From a virus, in IMG/VR virus record IMGVR_UViG_3300044641_005652, positions 1 through 47,373 of that record: a stretch of DNA of 47,373 bases; one strand, 5' to 3'. Position numbers and translations under genes: made by a program. The stretch's first letter is position 1; every line of letters starts with the position of its first letter. Under the pieces are notes generated by a model. It had not been told where the DNA came from. It ran no database searches and saw nothing but the letters and a program-made list of their open reading frames with translations. This document shows, piece by piece, positions 8,109 through 18,439 of this stretch.

Positions 8109-9831
8109 CTTCTATAGGTGTTACAATTTCATTTATGTTTTGTAAACCAATACCTTCTGGATAAACTCTAAATACATAATTAGAATACGGATAATGTTTT
8201 CCATTTAAAAATGGATAATCAACACCAATATCAGATGTATCTATAAAACCATAACTATATAAATCTCTCCATCTAAAACTATTTGATAAACTAGAATAAT
8301 AAGCGTAATCTGGAATACCTAAAACACCAGTTCTTGGTGCTTCCTCTATGTAATCAGAAAAAACTCTTATTGTTAATTTTGAGTGTGGTTTATAATAATA
8401 TCCAAGTGGGTTTGTTGGTGGTGCGTCAGACGGTACATCAAAAAAATTGTTGTTGAATGTGACTTTATGATTCATTTCGGATATTGTTCTTTCAATTTGT
8501 TCATAGTCATTCCATTCACAATAAGCACCATCTATAATGTCTCCAACATTTAAATTTGCGTTATAATAAAAAGGTCCATTTGGTGGTAAAGTTGATGAGT
8601 TATACTGTAATTCTGGAATACCTATTGCTGATAATGGATTTGTTTGGTCCCACCAAGGATTTGGTATTGTATTAACAAGAGGTACATTAAAATCAAAACC
8701 TTGTTTTAAATTTTTAGTCCAACCAAAATAACCTTTCCAAATTGTTGTGAAAAATAATTCGGTAATTGGTCTTTTTTGATTATCTTTAAGTGGATTTATA
8801 TCAACATCACAGTTAAAAGAAAGTGTATAACTTTGATTACCTTCTTTTACTGATGTCCTTTCAACATTATTTGGGGTAATTACTGCTTTTTCAAATTTTG
8901 TCTTTGACCTAAAATTATTAAGTTCAAAACCAGCTTTAACTAGTACGGCGCAATCAGCATCAGTTAAAACTTTATGTATTTTAACATAATATTTTGATTT
9001 TGTTTCTTCTATGTTTTCATTATTTAAAATTCTTTTAAAATTTCCAATTAAACCAGAATCAAATGTTGTTCCAGTATATCCAATATTATCTATATTAAAA
9101 ATAAATAAATCACTATCATATCCAACATCACCAATACTACTTACTTGAAAAATATTTGTACCATTGTAACCAAAAGATAACTCTACGTATTCTCCAGCTT
9201 GTAGTCCATGTTCCATAGGGCATTTAAATGATATTTGGTCTGGGTTTTGATCTGTACCAACCGAGATATAAAATGGAATTCCATCATTTGCCAACCAATA
9301 CCAAGAAGCTTGAGTTTCTGGGTCAATAGCATATAATGGTTTATCATAATCATTCTCAAAAGGATATGTTATATAATGTGACCAATTATATGTACTTGCA
9401 CTTTTATTTATAAATGTTAAATGATTGTTAGGTGGTTGTGTATATCCAATAGTGTTATTGTCAGTTCTAACTAAATCAAACTCAAAATATTGTGGATAAC
9501 CTTGCCAAGGTGTATTTGGGTTTGCAATTTGTGCCACAGCATTATTTACACCATTTGTATAATAAAGATTATCTCTAAATGGTGGATAGTTTGTTTTACC
9601 AATAAACTCATTTTGGAAAATAAATGAATATTTGCAACTAGGTCTGAATACTGTTGAGGCTTGTCTTTCTTCATCAAAAACGGTTTGTAGACTTAAATCA
9701 ACATTTCTATCAAATTCAATAATTTCTTTTTGATTACCATTTAAGGTTACGTCCAAAGATAAATTGGTATTCTGTGAAGATTTAAATCTTTCAGACCCTA
9801 AAACAATATTTGTTGTATTATCAATTCCCAT
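8095..9831 (-). CDS. Structural protein of unknown function (baseplate region)
   Basis: 578 residues. The ATG overlaps the stop of the 1816-residue gene as TAATG, and its own 3' end overlaps the next gene by 14 bases. It is rich in Asn, Tyr, Phe and Pro and beta-strand-like throughout, which is typical of phage baseplate or fibre proteins. Two short Tyr/Asn-rich stretches (about 380-430 and 500-540) have many Trp residues, a composition seen in sugar-binding surfaces, but no defined motif is present. No signal peptide or membrane helix. Function is not recognised; the position next to other baseplate-region proteins is the only guide. Confidence 0.5.
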   Translation of the reverse strand: MGIDNTTNIVLGSERFKSSQNTNLSLDVTLNGNQKEIIEFDRNVDLSLQTVFDEERQASTVFRPSCKYSFIFQNEFIGKTNYPPFRDNLYYTNGVNNAVAQIANPNTPWQGYPQYFEFDLVRTDNNTIGYTQPPNNHLTFINKSASTYNWSHYITYPFENDYDKPLYAIDPETQASWYWLANDGIPFYISVGTDQNPDQISFKCPMEHGLQAGEYVELSFGYNGTNIFQVSSIGDVGYDSDLFIFNIDNIGYTGTTFDSGLIGNFKRILNNENIEETKSKYYVKIHKVLTDADCAVLVKAGFELNNFRSKTKFEKAVITPNNVERTSVKEGNQSYTLSFNCDVDINPLKDNQKRPITELFFTTIWKGYFGWTKNLKQGFDFNVPLVNTIPNPWWDQTNPLSAIGIPELQYNSSTLPPNGPFYYNANLNVGDIIDGAYCEWNDYEQIERTISEMNHKVTFNNNFFDVPSDAPPTNPLGYYYKPHSKLTIRVFSDYIEEAPRTGVLGIPDYAYYSSLSNSFRWRDLYSYGFIDTSDIGVDYPFLNGKHYPYSNYVFRVYPEGIGLQNINEIVTPIEDECE

Positions 9832-12800
9832 TATCCTTCAGTTGATATATATAATTTAACAAATTTATCAATAGCTGTTTTACCATTATTTAAACCAAAA
9901 TAAAAATGGAATGGCGCCCCAACAACATAACTATTAGCATTACTTAATATTGGTTGTGGATTACCTAAAGCATCAAAATTTACCAAATAACCTAATTCGG
10001 TTGTTGGTGTTTTATAATATTCATTAGGTAAAGTAAAATCTAAATCTTGATAACCTCTAGTTGTAAAACCAGAACCAGGTTGACCTGGCGCATAAGTTGT
10101 ATCCCAATTATTATTTTCGTTACCAAAAATACTTGGTCCTTGTGATTCTATTTTCCATCTATAAAAAGGAACATCTTGTGTTTTTGGAAAACCATAATAA
10201 TACTGTAATAATGGTGTATAATTTAATGTTTCAAAACCAGGTGTTAAATTTCTTCTATATGAATAATCAATAGTTTCTGTTTCAAAAAACACACCAAAAA
10301 CAGGTCTTGGGTATCCGTCACCAGATTGTGTGTCATCACCAAAATATATTGAGTTAGGATTTTGATAATTTTCTGAAAGGAATGGTAAAATTCTCCACTC
10401 AGAGTTAACTGAAAGCATTTGAGCAAAATCACCATCAATTCTATCAGCTTGTCTAGTACTATTAAAAAATTGGATAATTCCTTTACCTTCAGTGTTACCA
10501 CCATTTGGGTTAGCAATTGGGATTATTGCTTGTCTAAAATTATCATTTAATAACCTAGATAAAAATCCAACTTGGATTATATCCGAATTATCTTGATATG
10601 ATGTTGATTTAACTTGATCTACAAAATAACTAGTAAAATTATTATTATTGCAAATTTCTGAAATAAATTTTTCTCTAGGACCTAAATCAACAACTGTTGT
10701 TGGGAATTGGATTTGTTTACCATTATAACCCAAACCAGGATAACCAGTTATTAGAGAAGTAGGTATATTAGCTGGTGGTGCCGGACTATTTTTTCCTATA
10801 AAGTTTGTTCCATCCCAAGGTGATGACCTATAATAAAAACCATTATTTATGTCATTAAACAATACAACATCATCACAATAAACATAAGTTGGGTCTGTTG
10901 GATTTGTTAGTGTATATGAATTTCTTTTATTAAATGTAAACATATACAATGTACCATTTATCCAATTATTTTGGAATGCTTGAGCAAAAATTCCTCTACA
11001 AGCAGCAAATGTTATTGTAAATCTTGTTTTCCATTCTAAAAATAATTTAACATCTTCATCATACTGAAATAAATAAGTCTTATTTAAAAGACAATAACAT
11101 CCTCTTACAAGTCTATCGGCTGGTATTGCACAGTTTGGGTTTACAGTAACGTTGTTTCCACTACCTTGGTAACAATCTAAGGGAACTAAATTTTCACAAG
11201 TAAGTGTTTGTAAAAGTCCTTGGTTTTCACTATCACTACCTTCACCAGATGGTATGTTTCCACCAATACTTGTTGTTGAACCGCCGTCACTTAAAGCATC
11301 AACAGTATAATATGTAAAATTATTGTTTTGGTGAAGACCATAACCTGTTGCAGTCGCTGGACCACTTTCAGTTTTTGTAGATGTTGGTAATCTATCACTT
11401 CTCATGACTATGTTTACACTATCGTTAAAATTAACATCTGGTAAGCTAAAATTATAATAAGCGCTAGAATATAAAGCATAAACAGTGCTGGTTGAATTAC
11501 CAATCCAACCATACTCTTCTTTTTGGTCTTGGTTAGAACCTGTAACGGTTGTTTGGAAATATTGTGGAATAAATGGAGTTGCTAATGAAGTTGGGGTTAC
11601 TGGGTATGTATTAGTGTTTAATCCTATAAATGTACCACCGCCAATTTGTAAATTTTGTGTGTCATACTTAGGTAGTTTGTATCCATTTGTTCCTAGTACT
11701 TGTGTTAAAAGCGCACCAGCAATTGTTTGAGTGTCTGGATGTGTTGTTACTGGTTTATATGTTAAGTTAGATGGTATTGTTGTATCATCTGTTGATATAA
11801 AATAATAAGGTAAATTTGAGGTAAAAGGTGTGTACTGTGTTGGGTCTGGAGTAAATGTGTAAGAAGGGAAATATAAATTAGTAGATACGTTTGTTGTTGT
11901 CTTATGACTTTTTGGTTTGGTACCACCAGCATAACCTTGTATTGGTACATTTAAATGGTATTGCCCACTAATAATAGGTCCAGCACCAAATGATTTACCA
12001 AAAATTCTTGATAAATCATATTTTATATTTTGTTTTTCTGTGTGTGGATCAACACCTCTAACAACAAAAATTATTTCATAATTTTCGTATTGACTAATTT
12101 GTTGTATAGCAGTAAAATCATTTACTTGTGTTCCAAATCTAGTTATTGGACTTACTATTTGTGTTGGTGTAGGACAAGCAGTAGGTGTCATAATATCATA
12201 TCTAATTTTATGACGAAGATATGATGCTGGAAAATCATTTGGATTAGTTGCAAAATCGGCCAATGTTTCAAAAGTTCCTACCGTCATACCAGTAATAACT
12301 TGATAGTATTCAACATCAGTTGCATATTTTAAGTAGTTTTCAGTTGACCCAGTTTGGATTATTGAGATTGGTACAGTTTGGTTTGTCGCATCAGTTGTTG
12401 CATATTGTATTGTACTTGAAATAGAAATTGGGTTTGTTAATGATGTTCCAGTAATTGCGTTATTACCAAACTGATTTAATGTTGCACCAGTTAAATTTAT
12501 TTGACAATTTGATTGCTTTGGGTTTTGGAATGTAAATAACTTATCACCTAAAGTTGCTGTAGTTCCAATTTGAACAATCATTACAATAATTTGATCGTAT
12601 ATATCTGGGGAATTGTTAACGTTTGTTTTAATTTTATTGACACCAGAAAAGTATTTGTCTCTTGTATTAAATTCGTTTAGTCTTTGTGGGTATGTAACAG
12701 TTCTTGGTCTTGCAAAGAATCTTTCATCAGGACTTAAACTCAATCTATTTGCAGCAAAAAGAAATGGTTGTGGGGCTTTAAATCTGTTAAATTCAGCACC

Positions 12801-15281
12801 ACTTGTAACATCATAACCAGAAAATAATCTTTTAAAATCAATTAATGCTTGTGTGGCAACTTCTGCAGTAATGTCTTGAGCAACAAGTCTATTTATTAAT
12901 GACCTATATTCTATTACATTTCCAAAAATGTTAAGACAGTAACCAAAATATCCACCATTGTCGTCGTTAGCATCATAACCTGATATTTGTTCATAATTGG
13001 GATGGTTTACAGAATAAGTTTGTGGTAAATTTAATGGTGCTAAAAAAGAATTAGACTGTGCTGTTGGTGGTTGATTGCCGCCAGATAAACTATTTTGTTG
13101 GTTTTGAATGTCTTGTGTAATAGTATTAGAATCAAAATCATCATCTTGAGGTGCATTACCACAATCACAATCACAAGTATTACACTCTGGGTATGAAATC
13201 ATTGGAAGTCCGATTCTTGGAAAGTTTTTAATTTTTGTTAATTTGTTTATAACAAAAATTGTAAACACAACAGCTAACGCCGCTTTAACTAATATTTGTA
13301 AACCCTGCCAAATTGTTCTGGCAATAACACCAGCGTTAATTACTGGACCACCAGGAACTGAAGTTGCTGTTAATTCAAGTATTGAATTTACGTAATCAAT
13401 TCCAGCTTCAACTTGTACATAGAGAAAATAAAGACCAAGAAAAATTAAAGCGTATTTTAATATTGGCCATAAAAAACAAATAAAATGTGCAATAAATAAA
13501 AGTACAAGTATTGGAAATGTAAGAATATTAATCAACATATTGAAAACGAAAAATAAAAAATCAAAATTTCTAATTATATCGTTTACAGGAAATGTATTTA
13601 CAGTTGTTTTACAAGTTCTATTATCAATTTCTTTTATACCCAAATGTCTTGCTCTTCCAATACCATTTTTGTATCTGTCAAGGAACATTGCTGTTGTATA
13701 AACTTTATTGTAATTAAACTCATAAAAAGTATCTTCACAATTAATTGCTTGTTGTACATCATTATAGTCGTCCCAATCAAGACTAAATGAATAAGATTTT
13801 AACACCTCAAAATAACTTTGTGGTAAAAATGTTATATTAAATGTTTGTGGTTGTGTGTCATCAACTGGGTTTGAAATAAATTGTATCGTATCACCGGCTG
13901 TAACTGGTATTGATGTTGGGTCACCAAAATATGGTTGACCGTTTATAATTATTGTTAAATTTGATGAATTTATTCTATCCTCAAGTAAATAACCACCAGT
14001 TCCAACAACTGGGGTTGTACTACCAGTCACAACACCAACCGGCAGCGTTACTACAACAGATTGTGCTGTTGTTGGGTCAAATGGGTCGTTACCTGATGAT
14101 GTCCAACCGTGTTCTTTTATATTTGGTACAAGGAAATTTGCTCTTTGAAATTGATTTTGTAATCCTTGTTCATTTTCCCATTTAAATTTAAATCTATATC
14201 TACCTTTAGTTGGTATTCCTTTTTTTGGGTCATTTGATAATACTTGTTGTCCAAATTCATTTGTAATTACATAGTCAATGTTCATTGGGACATTAACAAG
14301 AAATGATCCGTCACCATCAATTACTTTTCCGTTGTTGTCAAATTCATATGTTTCAAGTATCGGAAGATTATCACTATCTGGAAAAATTGTTTGTCTAATT
14401 GCCAAGATTTGTCCTGGTCCTGTTATAAGTTCACAAAGATTTCCAGTGTTATTTTTTGGTTTACAATTTGTTTTTAAAGCGTCATCTTCAGCAGTTGTAA
14501 TTATTGAACCCATAAAAATAGCTTTTGGTTCAATTTTAATATTTGCTTCAGCTGTTAAATCAAAATCAACTCTTGTTATTCCAAATTGACAAATATCTAC
14601 ATCACCCCAAAATGGTGAAATTTCAACAACTTTATTTAAAGTTTTAATCTGTGGTAATTCGTTTAGGTTTGAAGAAGTCTTAAAAGTATTTCCATTTACT
14701 TGTGATTGACTTGCAATACCTAAATCAACTAAATCTTGTGGTGCTAAAGAAAAACATCCAATATCTGATAAATCAACATCCATTACTAAGGTTTGATTTC
14801 CAGTTGGGACACCAAATATCATAAAGTCACCACTATCATTTGTTTTAACAGAAAATTTATAATATTTGTCATACACTTCAATATATGATTGGTCTAATAA
14901 AACTTCTTCCCTTGTTGGGAATGTTCCAGTTGCCGCGTGTGTTGAATAAGATGGGTCTTTTGGTAATAAGTTATATCTGTATCCGTCTTCATTTAAATCA
15001 GATAAACTTTTATATGGATATAACTCTGAAATAATTGGATTTGTTTCATCTTCTTGTGTTAATGGAATAAAAACTGATACTTTTGCATTTGGAATTCCAA
15101 AACCTCCATTGACTAATACTCTACCAACAACAACACCATAATCAGAACATACTCTTGTGTAAATGTCGGATTCATTTATTTTTAAAGATAGTATTTCTAA
15201 TTGATCAAAATCTTGTTCTAATTGAACATTTATATATTTGTCTTGACCAACTTCGGTTCTTATTCTATATGATTTGGGCAT
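9831..15281 (-). CDS. Giant baseplate-region protein with Ig-like N-domain and membrane segments
   Basis: 1816 residues, ATG start at 15281. The N-terminus (about 45-165) has the look of a carboxypeptidase-regulatory-like Ig fold: GVVVGRVLVNGGFGIPNAKV followed by VKTNDSGDFMIFGVPTGN. Residues about 570-630 contain two or more long hydrophobic segments with little charge (the core includes FLFFVFNMLINILTFPILVL and a following IAHFICFLWPILKYALIFLG). Another hydrophobic stretch is at about 650-685 (LVKAALAVVFTIFVINKL), followed by a Cys cluster CNTCDCDC near 703. The remainder is beta-rich and polar. There is no N-terminal signal peptide. Membrane helices buried inside a tail-operon protein suggest a role in envelope contact or penetration, or a tail-internal position before injection; this is inference. 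A TATTTATC box lies upstream at 15298-15305. Confidence 0.6.
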   Translation of the reverse strand: MPKSYRIRTEVGQDKYINVQLEQDFDQLEILSLKINESDIYTRVCSDYGVVVGRVLVNGGFGIPNAKVSVFIPLTQEDETNPIISELYPYKSLSDLNEDGYRYNLLPKDPSYSTHAATGTFPTREEVLLDQSYIEVYDKYYKFSVKTNDSGDFMIFGVPTGNQTLVMDVDLSDIGCFSLAPQDLVDLGIASQSQVNGNTFKTSSNLNELPQIKTLNKVVEISPFWGDVDICQFGITRVDFDLTAEANIKIEPKAIFMGSIITTAEDDALKTNCKPKNNTGNLCELITGPGQILAIRQTIFPDSDNLPILETYEFDNNGKVIDGDGSFLVNVPMNIDYVITNEFGQQVLSNDPKKGIPTKGRYRFKFKWENEQGLQNQFQRANFLVPNIKEHGWTSSGNDPFDPTTAQSVVVTLPVGVVTGSTTPVVGTGGYLLEDRINSSNLTIIINGQPYFGDPTSIPVTAGDTIQFISNPVDDTQPQTFNITFLPQSYFEVLKSYSFSLDWDDYNDVQQAINCEDTFYEFNYNKVYTTAMFLDRYKNGIGRARHLGIKEIDNRTCKTTVNTFPVNDIIRNFDFLFFVFNMLINILTFPILVLLFIAHFICFLWPILKYALIFLGLYFLYVQVEAGIDYVNSILELTATSVPGGPVINAGVIARTIWQGLQILVKAALAVVFTIFVINKLTKIKNFPRIGLPMISYPECNTCDCDCGNAPQDDDFDSNTITQDIQNQQNSLSGGNQPPTAQSNSFLAPLNLPQTYSVNHPNYEQISGYDANDDNGGYFGYCLNIFGNVIEYRSLINRLVAQDITAEVATQALIDFKRLFSGYDVTSGAEFNRFKAPQPFLFAANRLSLSPDERFFARPRTVTYPQRLNEFNTRDKYFSGVNKIKTNVNNSPDIYDQIIVMIVQIGTTATLGDKLFTFQNPKQSNCQINLTGATLNQFGNNAITGTSLTNPISISSTIQYATTDATNQTVPISIIQTGSTENYLKYATDVEYYQVITGMTVGTFETLADFATNPNDFPASYLRHKIRYDIMTPTACPTPTQIVSPITRFGTQVNDFTAIQQISQYENYEIIFVVRGVDPHTEKQNIKYDLSRIFGKSFGAGPIISGQYHLNVPIQGYAGGTKPKSHKTTTNVSTNLYFPSYTFTPDPTQYTPFTSNLPYYFISTDDTTIPSNLTYKPVTTHPDTQTIAGALLTQVLGTNGYKLPKYDTQNLQIGGGTFIGLNTNTYPVTPTSLATPFIPQYFQTTVTGSNQDQKEEYGWIGNSTSTVYALYSSAYYNFSLPDVNFNDSVNIVMRSDRLPTSTKTESGPATATGYGLHQNNNFTYYTVDALSDGGSTTSIGGNIPSGEGSDSENQGLLQTLTCENLVPLDCYQGSGNNVTVNPNCAIPADRLVRGCYCLLNKTYLFQYDEDVKLFLEWKTRFTITFAACRGIFAQAFQNNWINGTLYMFTFNKRNSYTLTNPTDPTYVYCDDVVLFNDINNGFYYRSSPWDGTNFIGKNSPAPPANIPTSLITGYPGLGYNGKQIQFPTTVVDLGPREKFISEICNNNNFTSYFVDQVKSTSYQDNSDIIQVGFLSRLLNDNFRQAIIPIANPNGGNTEGKGIIQFFNSTRQADRIDGDFAQMLSVNSEWRILPFLSENYQNPNSIYFGDDTQSGDGYPRPVFGVFFETETIDYSYRRNLTPGFETLNYTPLLQYYYGFPKTQDVPFYRWKIESQGPSIFGNENNNWDTTYAPGQPGSGFTTRGYQDLDFTLPNEYYKTPTTELGYLVNFDALGNPQPILSNANSYVVGAPFHFYFGLNNGKTAIDKFVKLYISTEG

Positions 15282-15401: not shown

Positions 15402-17240
15402 CTATGAGAAGTTTACCGTTTTAAGGTTTATCACACGAACATTAATATCCTTATTTGGAAACCTAATTTGGTATATTTGAGTTGGTTCAGCAAATATTGT
15501 ATCGTTTATTAATTGAATTTGTTTTGTTGCTGCATCAGAATATCTTTGTGATGTTTGATTTGATGAATACTGACCACCAACTTTATTGTAAAATCTAATA
15601 TCAGAAATACTAACAACCCCATTTTCATTTTGGATTATTCTTCTTAACTCTGAAACATTAACATTTTGACCAAGTTGTCTTGTTGTTGGACTAAAAAACG
15701 TAGTTACAAGGTTAATTATTTTTGAAACAAGTGCTCCCTGATTTTGTGTCGCATCCAATACAACATCAACATCTATTGATAAGTCAATTGGGTTTGCACT
15801 TTCAATTGAAATGTAATCATTAATCATTCTGTAATTTGACAAATAATTTGCAACATTACTTTTTAATGTGTTTGATATTGTATCTGTTAAATTACCGCTT
15901 GAGTCATATGATAACATTTTTATTTTAATTTTATTATTCTCCTCAGTTATTGATACTTTTGCTGGTGCACCAAATTGTGAAGGCATTGTTCTAATTAAAG
16001 ATTCATAATCATTAATCGTTGTCGCTCTATTTTGGGCTGAAAAGTTAAATGAAACCATTTGTCTAACATCTTCTGTTGTTGGTGCATTTGCACCACCAAT
16101 GGCTGCTGTTACATTATTACATCTTAATGTATTAATTACACTTCTATTCACACTTTCAGAAGGACCGTTAACAAAAAATGATACGGTTCCAATTTGTGTT
16201 ATGACATTTGAACCAAGATTTGAGGCTTGTCCTCCACCAATTCTATACTGAATGAACAAAGTTGAATTGGATTTAAGTGCTGCACCTAAAGCAAGATTGT
16301 TTGAGTATTTGTTTAAATCAAAACCATTTCCAGTTCTTGCAAATTCTCTTAATTGTTCTTCAGCTGAAACATTTCCACCACCAAATGTCATTTTTAAATA
16401 ACCTTCTGGTGTGTATTCTGATATAAATTTTGTATTTGTTGTGATATATCTTCCAACTTTAATTCCAGGTTGATCCGATACTTTTGTTGGGTCCTCAATA
16501 AAAACTCTATCTTCTGCCAGTGCTTTTACTTCATACCATCTATTATCTAAACCTAAAAATTCTTGTGGTTCTGGAATATTTGTATATTGGGTTCCATCTT
16601 TTAACAAAACACTTGTAATACCCAAAACATTTTTTTCTGGTAAAAATAGTTCAAAATAAGGTTTAACATCATTTGGTGTGATTACCCTTTTAAACACCTT
16701 TGTAATTCCATTTACAACAACTTCTCTTTTGGTAATTGTATAATTTAATAACTTACCATTTGCATCAAAGTTTGGGACTTTTAATCTATTTGGTGAACCT
16801 TCCGCATTTAATGGTGATGCAAAATCAATATCATACACGGTTTCAAAAGGTTGTCCAGCACCTGATGCTTGTGACCCTCTTCTTAATATACCACAATATC
16901 TTAAATCTTCTTTATCACCAAAAGCTGGAACTGTAATTGAGAAATCAACTAAAGCAACAGATGGTCTTTGTCCTGGAATTTTTAAACCATAGGTTCTTGC
17001 TATATTATATATTGATGATTTTTGTTGTGCGTATTGTAATACGGTTTCTTGAATACTTCTATCAATTTGAAAATGTAAATTGTCTGTTACGGCAGCGTTC
17101 AAATCCATTAAAACAGAAAAAACACCAGCGTCATTAAAGTTTTGTATAAGGTCTGGGTAATAAGTTCTTGTGAAATTTATTAATTCAGTTCTTATTGTTT
17201 GGAAATCTCTTGTTGTGTATGATATTTTTTTTTCTGCCAT
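15402..17240 (-). CDS. 6: Baseplate wedge protein, T4 gp6-like (baseplate J family)
   Basis: 612 residues, close to T4 gp6 (660). The N-terminus has the family landmarks: ISYTTRDFQTIRTELINFTR, then YPDLIQNFNDAGVFSVLMDL and DNLHFQIDRSIQETVL with QQKSSIYNIARTYGLKIPGQ. The C-terminal half has the baseplate-J pattern (about 380-480, TTINDYESLIRTMPSQFG, with SYDSSGNL after it) and a C-terminal region with ELRRIIQNENGVVSISDI. gp6 dimers link neighbouring wedges into the ring that opens when the sheath contracts. It is 12 bases upstream of the fibre-like gene's end in the same transcription unit, with gp25 just beyond, as in T4-like tail clusters. ATG 17240 follows an A-rich leader without Shine-Dalgarno. 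Identification is strong. Confidence 0.9.
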   Translation of the reverse strand: MAEKKISYTTRDFQTIRTELINFTRTYYPDLIQNFNDAGVFSVLMDLNAAVTDNLHFQIDRSIQETVLQYAQQKSSIYNIARTYGLKIPGQRPSVALVDFSITVPAFGDKEDLRYCGILRRGSQASGAGQPFETVYDIDFASPLNAEGSPNRLKVPNFDANGKLLNYTITKREVVVNGITKVFKRVITPNDVKPYFELFLPEKNVLGITSVLLKDGTQYTNIPEPQEFLGLDNRWYEVKALAEDRVFIEDPTKVSDQPGIKVGRYITTNTKFISEYTPEGYLKMTFGGGNVSAEEQLREFARTGNGFDLNKYSNNLALGAALKSNSTLFIQYRIGGGQASNLGSNVITQIGTVSFFVNGPSESVNRSVINTLRCNNVTAAIGGANAPTTEDVRQMVSFNFSAQNRATTINDYESLIRTMPSQFGAPAKVSITEENNKIKIKMLSYDSSGNLTDTISNTLKSNVANYLSNYRMINDYISIESANPIDLSIDVDVVLDATQNQGALVSKIINLVTTFFSPTTRQLGQNVNVSELRRIIQNENGVVSISDIRFYNKVGGQYSSNQTSQRYSDAATKQIQLINDTIFAEPTQIYQIRFPNKDINVRVINLKTVNFS

Positions 17241-17252
17241 AATGTTTTATTT

Positions 17253-17936
17253 TTATATACTAAATTTTCTTACTGCACGAACATAGTATGTGGTGTTCTT
17301 AAGGTTAACGCCGGCAATCCCATCGTAGAAGGATAAGCCCCACGCGTTGAGGCTGCCGTACTCCGTACTACTCCAATAATAATCATAACCAATTTGGACA
17401 GCCCCTAATATAGGACCAAAATTAGAATTACCTGATAATGTTTTATTTACATTAAATCTATTTTGCCAAATCAAACTTAATTCATCAATCGCAGGTAAAT
17501 ACCAATCCGACTTACTATTGTTTGTTGAATCTAAACATAATTTAGTGGCACCAGTTATAAATCCTAATTGACCCACTATTGCATTACTATTACTTGACCC
17601 ATCCCAAGTGCTTTGTGCTGTAGGGCCTATAATTACATTATCTATATTACTCCAATCTGAACTTGTACTTAAATCAGTTGTATCAACAACTAAATAATTC
17701 TGAGTTCCATTATCAATATATTTATGAAATATAATACCACCTTCAGAAGATACATATTCACCAATTTCATAGGTATAATTAGTTATACCAGAGTTAATAT
17801 AACTTTTTAAATCAGTAACTCTTATATTTTTTGTTGTACCGGAATAAACATCATAATTTACTATTGCAAGTAAATCATATGGTGTTACACCAGAGGTTGT
17901 TATATTTTGTAATTGTGATATTCTTTTATTTGCCAT
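17253..17936 (-). CDS. Fibre-like protein with C-type-lectin-like (DUF1566-type) variable C-terminus
   Basis: 227 residues. The N-terminus (1-48, MANKRISQLQNITTSG then DLLAIVNYD and IRVTDLKSYI) matches the short anchoring segment of many phage fibre proteins. Residues about 55-225 form a DUF1566/formylglycine-enzyme-like C-type lectin fold: DWYLPAIDELSLIW, then YYWSSTEYGSLNAWGLSFYD and a terminal YYVRAVRKF. This fold is a frequent target of diversity-generating retroelements. Codons 190-220 are unlike the rest of the gene: 17281-17370 counts about 51% G+C against about 27% in the next 60 bases, and 15 of 25 codons there end in C, including long runs of NNC. That is what adenine-directed mutagenesis of AAC codons leaves behind. 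The gene lies between gp25 and gp6. It is probably a receptor-binding or baseplate-tip protein. Confidence 0.75.
   Translation of the reverse strand: MANKRISQLQNITTSGVTPYDLLAIVNYDVYSGTTKNIRVTDLKSYINSGITNYTYEIGEYVSSEGGIIFHKYIDNGTQNYLVVDTTDLSTSSDWSNIDNVIIGPTAQSTWDGSSNSNAIVGQLGFITGATKLCLDSTNNSKSDWYLPAIDELSLIWQNRFNVNKTLSGNSNFGPILGAVQIGYDYYWSSTEYGSLNAWGLSFYDGIAGVNLKNTTYYVRAVRKFSI
17275..17375 (-). other. Candidate DGR variable region
   Basis: This covers the codons from about YWSSTEY to the VRAVRKF terminus of the fibre-like gene. It stands out by G+C content and by C-ending codons within an AT-rich, T/A-ending gene. Potentially mutated positions match the solvent-exposed sites of the C-type lectin fold, and the conserved VRAVR end would be the 3' anchor. 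No template repeat or reverse transcriptase was found in the window, so this is a candidate only. Confidence 0.55.
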
Positions 17937-17942
17937 ATACTA

Positions 17943-18401
17943 TTAAATATTAATAATTACAAAATCACTACTCTCAAAAGCTTGATTTGTTGATATATAA
18001 TTTATTTTTATTTTTGCTGTATGTTCTTTTTCGGCAATACCTTGAACAGTAAATTCTCTTTCTCCTTGTGAGTTAACAAATGTTCCTTTATTTTCTTCAC
18101 CTTCTGAAGCGTCTTTAACTTCAATACTTGTAATTTGTAATCCTGGAATGTATTTTTCAACTGAATCCCTAATTTCAGCTTCAATATCAGAAAATGTTGG
18201 TCCGTCTAATGGTTCAAAAATATATTCATATAGTCTTGTTCCAAAATCTGGTAAATAATATCTGGTTCCTTTTCTTGTTAGTAATAGATGTATTAAATTA
18301 CTTCTGATTTCTTCGTCAGATGTATCTGATGTGTCTAAGTACCGACCGGTAAAAGATTCTCTAAAAGGAAAATTAATACCATATGTTACACCATTTGCCA
18401 T
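17943..18401 (-). CDS. 25: Baseplate wedge protein, T4 gp25-like
   Basis: 152 residues from ATG 18401 (an in-frame TTG two codons upstream at 18407 would add only two residues; I prefer the ATG). It carries the GPW/gp25 pattern: GINFPFRESFTGRYLDTSDT, then EIRSNLIHLLLTRKGTRYYL with PDFGTRLYEYIFEPLDGPTF. It ends with a beta-rich region containing ITSIEVKDASE. In T4, gp25 joins gp6 and gp53 to form the wedge core and primes sheath polymerisation. It is followed by the fibre-like gene and gp6, so two wedge-core genes are in one transcription unit. T4 gp25 is 132 residues, so the length fits. Identification is strong. Confidence 0.9.
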   Translation of the reverse strand: MANGVTYGINFPFRESFTGRYLDTSDTSDEEIRSNLIHLLLTRKGTRYYLPDFGTRLYEYIFEPLDGPTFSDIEAEIRDSVEKYIPGLQITSIEVKDASEGEENKGTFVNSQGEREFTVQGIAEKEHTAKIKINYISTNQAFESSDFVIINI

Positions 18402-18405
18402 ATTC

Positions 18406-18439
18406 AATAAATATAAGGTTGGTGAATTTTATATAAATA
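18406..18439 (-). promoter_or_regulatory. Two TATTTAT boxes upstream of gp25-like gene
   Basis: On the minus strand TATTTATA lies at 18439-18432 and TATTTATT at 18413-18406, both between the DUF5522-like gene and gp25. The first overlaps the T tract of the terminator and the second is only four bases from ATG 18401, so the upstream copy is the more plausible promoter element. Confidence 0.3.

Follow-up and report, generated by a model that had tools for sequence, protein, structure and literature searches.

The window analysed here is a 47,373-nucleotide stretch comprising the whole of the phage record IMGVR_UViG_3300044641_005652 in IMG/VR. The 3′ end of an accessory lectin gene in this phage is, close to certainly, a variable region (VR) made by a diversity-generating retroelement (DGR), and a matching template repeat (TR) was identified beside a reverse transcriptase (RT) gene in a bacterial genome. 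We suggest, with a probability of roughly 55%, that this VR is an orphan templated in trans by the DGR of a host. The features are collected in Table 1.

Table 1. Coordinates of the target gene, its VR and neighbours in the window, and of the bacterial DGR locus (L141).
Feature	Record	Position	Strand	Remarks
Target gene, 227 aa	Window	17253..17936	minus	Low-confidence N-terminal part; C-terminal Lcl_C (C-type-lectin-like) domain
DGR VR, 104 bp	Window	17275..17378	minus	Differs from the L141 TR at 20/43 A and 3/61 non-A positions
Rewritten part, codons 193–217	Window	17286..17360	minus	Template mostly AAC/AAT; codon-by-codon comparison with the TR
5′ anchor TATTGGAGTAGTACGGAG	Window	17361..17378	minus	TR identical here
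3′ anchor TATGTTCGTGC (TR: TATGTGCGTGC)	Window	17275..17285	minus	Where the initiation-of-mutagenic-homing (IMH) end is expected
gp25-like baseplate wedge gene	Window	17943..18407	minus	Upstream of target; PF04965, E=3.3e-12
gp6/Baseplate_J-like wedge gene	Window	15402..17240	minus	Downstream of target; PF04865, E=2.7e-6
Lcl_C target	L141	799-1764		Predicted secreted protein
Avd (bAvd)	L141	1823-2167		PF22296, E=1e-21
TR	L141	2272-2403		
RT	L141	2458-3726		PF00078, E=3e-18

A preliminary description, made from the window alone, had proposed a C-type-lectin-type C-terminus for the target protein, and this was confirmed by both Pfam and fold comparison. The Lcl_C domain (PF07603, E=1.8e-11) covers residues 87–223. 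The AlphaFold2 model has a mean pLDDT of 83, with high values from about residue 60 onward, and its top fold match in the PDB is the C-terminal domain of Legionella Lcl (8q4e, E=2.6e-7); C-type lectins are weak fold matches. The VR sits at the 3′ end of the gene, inside this domain, and DSSP of the predicted model places the rewritten codons in strands and loops of the lectin fold.

The placement of the gene between two wedge genes was correctly recognized in the preliminary description, but the gene is not a conserved component of the baseplate tip. Of 82 related loci, 75 have just 5–10 nt between gp25 and gp6 and no lectin insert; the insert is present in the window, L001, L012 and L029–L031. 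The lectin gene of the window is an accessory insertion, mobile relative to the phage. A phage of the same genus, G032 (IMGVR_UViG_3300044633_000899, the contig of L036/L069 and L180-L194; 296 kb), has a gp6 that is 93% identical to that of the window, and its lectin gene lies about 120 kb away, unlike the window's at the gp25/gp6 site. In this G032 lectin (L036:8876-10957, 694 aa), two repeated insertions (EPVTVEVESSGE...) interrupt the Lcl_C domain, and the VR has no non-A substitution. We also noted, at 9831-15281 on the minus strand of the window, a gene for a 1816-aa baseplate/tail-region protein whose long hydrophobic stretch of multiple helices (INILTFPILVLLFIAHFICFLWPILKYALIF...) is odd for a virion protein.

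The base composition of the gene changes sharply at its 3′ end. The G+C content is 51.1% in 17281-17370, compared with 28% in the adjacent 90-nt step upstream within the gene, 31.6% in the whole gene and 30.9% in the window, which bears out the jump from about 27% to about 51% described earlier. Codons ending in C number 15 of the 29 lying wholly within this stretch and 9 of the 198 in the rest of the gene (Fisher p=5e-10); the count of 15 given in the preliminary description was right, and its total of 25 was a small miscount.

Relatives of the target protein form two sets, one with AT-rich tails and one whose tails share the skeleton TGGAGTAGTACGGAG NNC... GCGTGG NNC TTC NNC TTC NNC NNT GGG. 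A template of AAC/AAT codons was inferred from the skeleton-bearing phage tails and then sought as a degenerate pattern. A stricter pattern (at least four AAC codons before GCN TGG) missed the template because the second codon of the latter is GAC, and the later search was relaxed. The degenerate pattern had exactly one match in genome_contigs (about 85,000 prokaryote genomes), zero matches in 2.9 million viral contigs, and none in annotated phage records or plasmids. The match lies on a 4.5-kb contig (L141, CANNJE010000181.1) of a Chitinophagaceae MAG (ZH-Oct18), a bacterium from a lake to judge from the isolate name, and the TR is known from this single contig. The locus is a complete cellular DGR with a lectin target, Avd, TR and RT, flanked by frames for a T9SS-sorted protein and a TetR-like protein. 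Its own VR differs from its TR by 20 A changes and no others. Other Bacteroidia TRs belong to the same kind of DGR and were rejected as the template, as they fit the phage VR skeleton worse. In a separate bacterial locus, L167, an adenine-rich lectin tail occurs as four near-identical tandem copies, of which two are identical; these are possibly multiple templates.

The comparison of the phage VRs with the L141 TR revealed adenine-specific rewriting. The window VR is changed at 20 of 43 template adenines and at 3 of 61 other positions (p=5.3e-7), so that 58 of 61 non-A positions match; the VRs of L013, L139 and G032 carry 19, 15 and 21 A changes, respectively, and match at 61/61 non-A positions, that of G032 having an additional 9-nt insertion. 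Across 18 distinct ungapped phage VRs, inner adenines are changed at 328 of 666 positions (49%) and non-A positions at 20 of 1098 (1.8%), the new base at inner adenines being T in 155, G in 112 and C in 61 cases. The states of the A sites across VRs are nearly, not wholly, independent (variance 10.8 vs 7.8 when shuffled, p=0.01). Chance or codon usage was considered as the source of the bias and rejected, since the AT-rich lectin tails of L012, L007, L015, L017, L024, L026, L029 and L032 show none; L012 and L029 occupy the same genomic site as the window lectin. The DGR-type VR proposed at the outset is supported. A near-copy differing only at adenines and lying beside an RT had also been anticipated; it exists, but in a bacterial genome and with three non-A differences. 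Because of these three differences, the exact TR of the window may be one other than that of L141. The window VR shares with the L141 system the template, the lectin domain and the adenine-specific changes; the difference is that the bacterial target stands beside its own TR, Avd and RT, while the phage has the VR alone.

The RT search of the window found none, in line with the preliminary description, which had reported TR and RT absent from it and had expected both elsewhere in the phage genome. That the phage carries its own RT and TR in the part beyond the 47-kb record is conceivable on several grounds: the phage genome is incomplete, the window being about 16% of a genome of about 296 kb, many VR-bearing contigs are fragments, and phage-borne DGRs are common (PMC8144416). 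We consider it quite improbable, because complete relatives lack both elements. Although listed as linear, G032 has a 174-nt terminal overlap with a single mismatch, and the window continues across the resulting junction, so the genome is complete. This genome contains one VR, free of non-A changes, with no second copy or TR and no RT (PF00078 and a DGR-RT HMM), which speaks against the expectation of a TR and RT elsewhere in this phage. A weak RT-like match in G032 (phmmer E=6e-4, 67 residues, 13 bits) looks like chance, and the DGR-RT HMM misses the same segment. A second complete genome, G968 (IMGVR_UViG_3300032050_000140; 61 kb, listed as linear, 240-nt terminal overlap), likewise has one VR, no TR and no RT by the same two models. 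Template and enzyme are thus absent from two complete relatives and likely from the window phage.

The same result was obtained on a wider scale. Scanning for the VR skeleton yielded 34 viral contigs (1.18 Mb) with 22 distinct VRs; no TR was found in these 34 contigs, although the same pattern would match a TR, and no RT in any VR-bearing record searched. PF00078 gave a single match across more than 110 viral records, in G036/L138, a lectin-bearing contig with a distant target. No close relative of the L141 RT was found in viral contigs, and the RTs of phage records are less than 47% identical to it. The lack of the predicted TR among the 2.9 million viral contigs argues against a DGR of the phage's own. 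In one viral contig, L056, a lectin tail seems to occur twice (1174-1300 and 1866-1981), as an apparent VR and as an adenine-rich, TR-like copy, perhaps marking a related phage-borne DGR.

The TR and RT could also be supplied by a mobile element or prophage of the host and not by its core chromosome. Mobile elements are known carriers of DGRs, and the L141 contig, at just 4.5 kb, leaves room for this. The genes that flank L141 and the absence of the TR from the viral, phage and plasmid collections point the other way, and such a source seems highly improbable.

Close phages allow the changes to be followed directly. The VRs of L215 and L217 differ at 20/43 template adenines and 1/61 other positions (flanks 0.8–2.5% different), those of L217 and L225 at 19/43 and 0/61 (flanks 5%), and those of L198 and L225 at 25/43 and 1/61. 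L215, L217 and L225 are fragments, so that for these an own DGR elsewhere is possible. G032 and its relative L019 have different VRs amid surroundings that are about 93% identical. VRs thus do change in phages, as some near-identical phages differ at about 20 template adenines and at zero or one other position. The window VR, compared with that of L001, its one close relative, is identical despite 71 SNPs in 12.5 kb, and the VR is also constant in L003/L005 (96.6% identical) and in L139/L140. We take the identity across strains to mean that there is no current diversification in window/L001 and L003/L005. Excess variation at template adenines, as predicted, was seen in other phages bearing VRs of this kind and not in the window's own VR.

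The four phages L198, L215, L217 and L225 belong to another phage group, in which the same VR lies in a protein of 116–118 aa (L198:3488-3835, L215:10171-10524, L217:990-1343, L225:7833-8180). The genes next to the L198 target are not tail genes but replication/early ones, with uracil-DNA-glycosylase-like and helicase-like frames, and the DGR targets of this group are for this reason probably not tail tips. AT-rich stems follow the VR in this group; 28% of random G032 windows have a stem, and that background applies here too. For the window VR, no stem of at least 6 bp was present within the 100 nt that follow.

The fixed VRs bear on the main rival to action in trans, which is capture by recombination. 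Here the VR would have been diversified in a bacterial or other-phage target and moved by homologous recombination through the lectin flanks, and the phage would hold frozen variants. Constancy within several phage lineages fits this, as does the nature of the lectin gene itself as an accessory insertion. The bacterial and phage lectin domains are also homologous, with 60–69% DNA identity upstream of the VR. At the non-A sites of the VR the identity is 95–100%. The VR is therefore of more recent origin than the rest of the gene, an outcome expected of either retrohoming or recombination over a very short tract. The tracts, however, do not extend beyond roughly the same 104-bp stretch defined by the TR in all 22 distinct VRs, in targets of 116 to 694 aa, and the shared ends are just 18 and about 11 nt. 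No VR haplotype is common to different gene contexts, and the differences between near-identical phages fall almost entirely on template adenines. On balance, capture seems rather unlikely.

Templating in trans by a host DGR would proceed as follows. A phage carrying only the target would infect a putative Bacteroidota host with an L141-type DGR, whose RT and Avd would copy the host TR RNA with errors at adenines. Homing of the mutated cDNA into the phage gene would then rely on the short ends common to VR and TR, TATTGGAGTAGTACGGAG and TATGTGCGTGC, and would provide the target-only phage with new receptor-binding surfaces. Diversification events look episodic: the window VR is static between the two known strains, and the VRs of other phages differ. 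The odds appear even that this cellular Bacteroidota DGR lineage is a common mutagenesis service, with several unrelated phages (T4-like jumbo myoviruses and smaller tailed phages) carrying only landing-site VRs in their own proteins, on which the TR, RT and Avd of the host would act during infection.

To our knowledge, the template and RT of phage DGRs are encoded by the phage itself, and known trans targets share a genome with their DGR. The DGR of Bordetella phage BPP-1 resembles the present case in that a gene of the phage tail region (mtd) carries a C-type-lectin VR at its 3′ end, with adenine-specific changes. It differs in that avd, TR and brt lie beside mtd and a hairpin follows the IMH, none of which was found for the window phage. 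Action in trans is feasible, as a DGR-deleted BPP-1 lacking avd, TR and brt was diversified from a plasmid (PMC3240598). Remote targets in cyanobacteria (PMC7517822), Treponema (PMC4891356) and Thiohalocapsa PB-PSB1 (PMC10907252) likewise have a VR apart from the TR and RT, and a match at non-A sites is the means of recognizing trans targets within one genome (PMC10907252). There, VR and TR reside in one cellular genome; in the present case phages carry the VR and a bacterium carries the TR. Our literature search, whose coverage left out most subscription journals, yielded no account of phage genes being diversified by a cellular DGR, and a DGR survey states its inability to detect remote targets (PMC8144416).

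Phages with orphan VRs may thus use the mutating machinery of their putative hosts. If phages keep the target only and borrow the machinery, surveys that look for an RT beside a VR would miss such hypervariable phage proteins altogether. A bacterial diversity system would then feed the variability of the proteins of its own viruses, a host–virus conflict.
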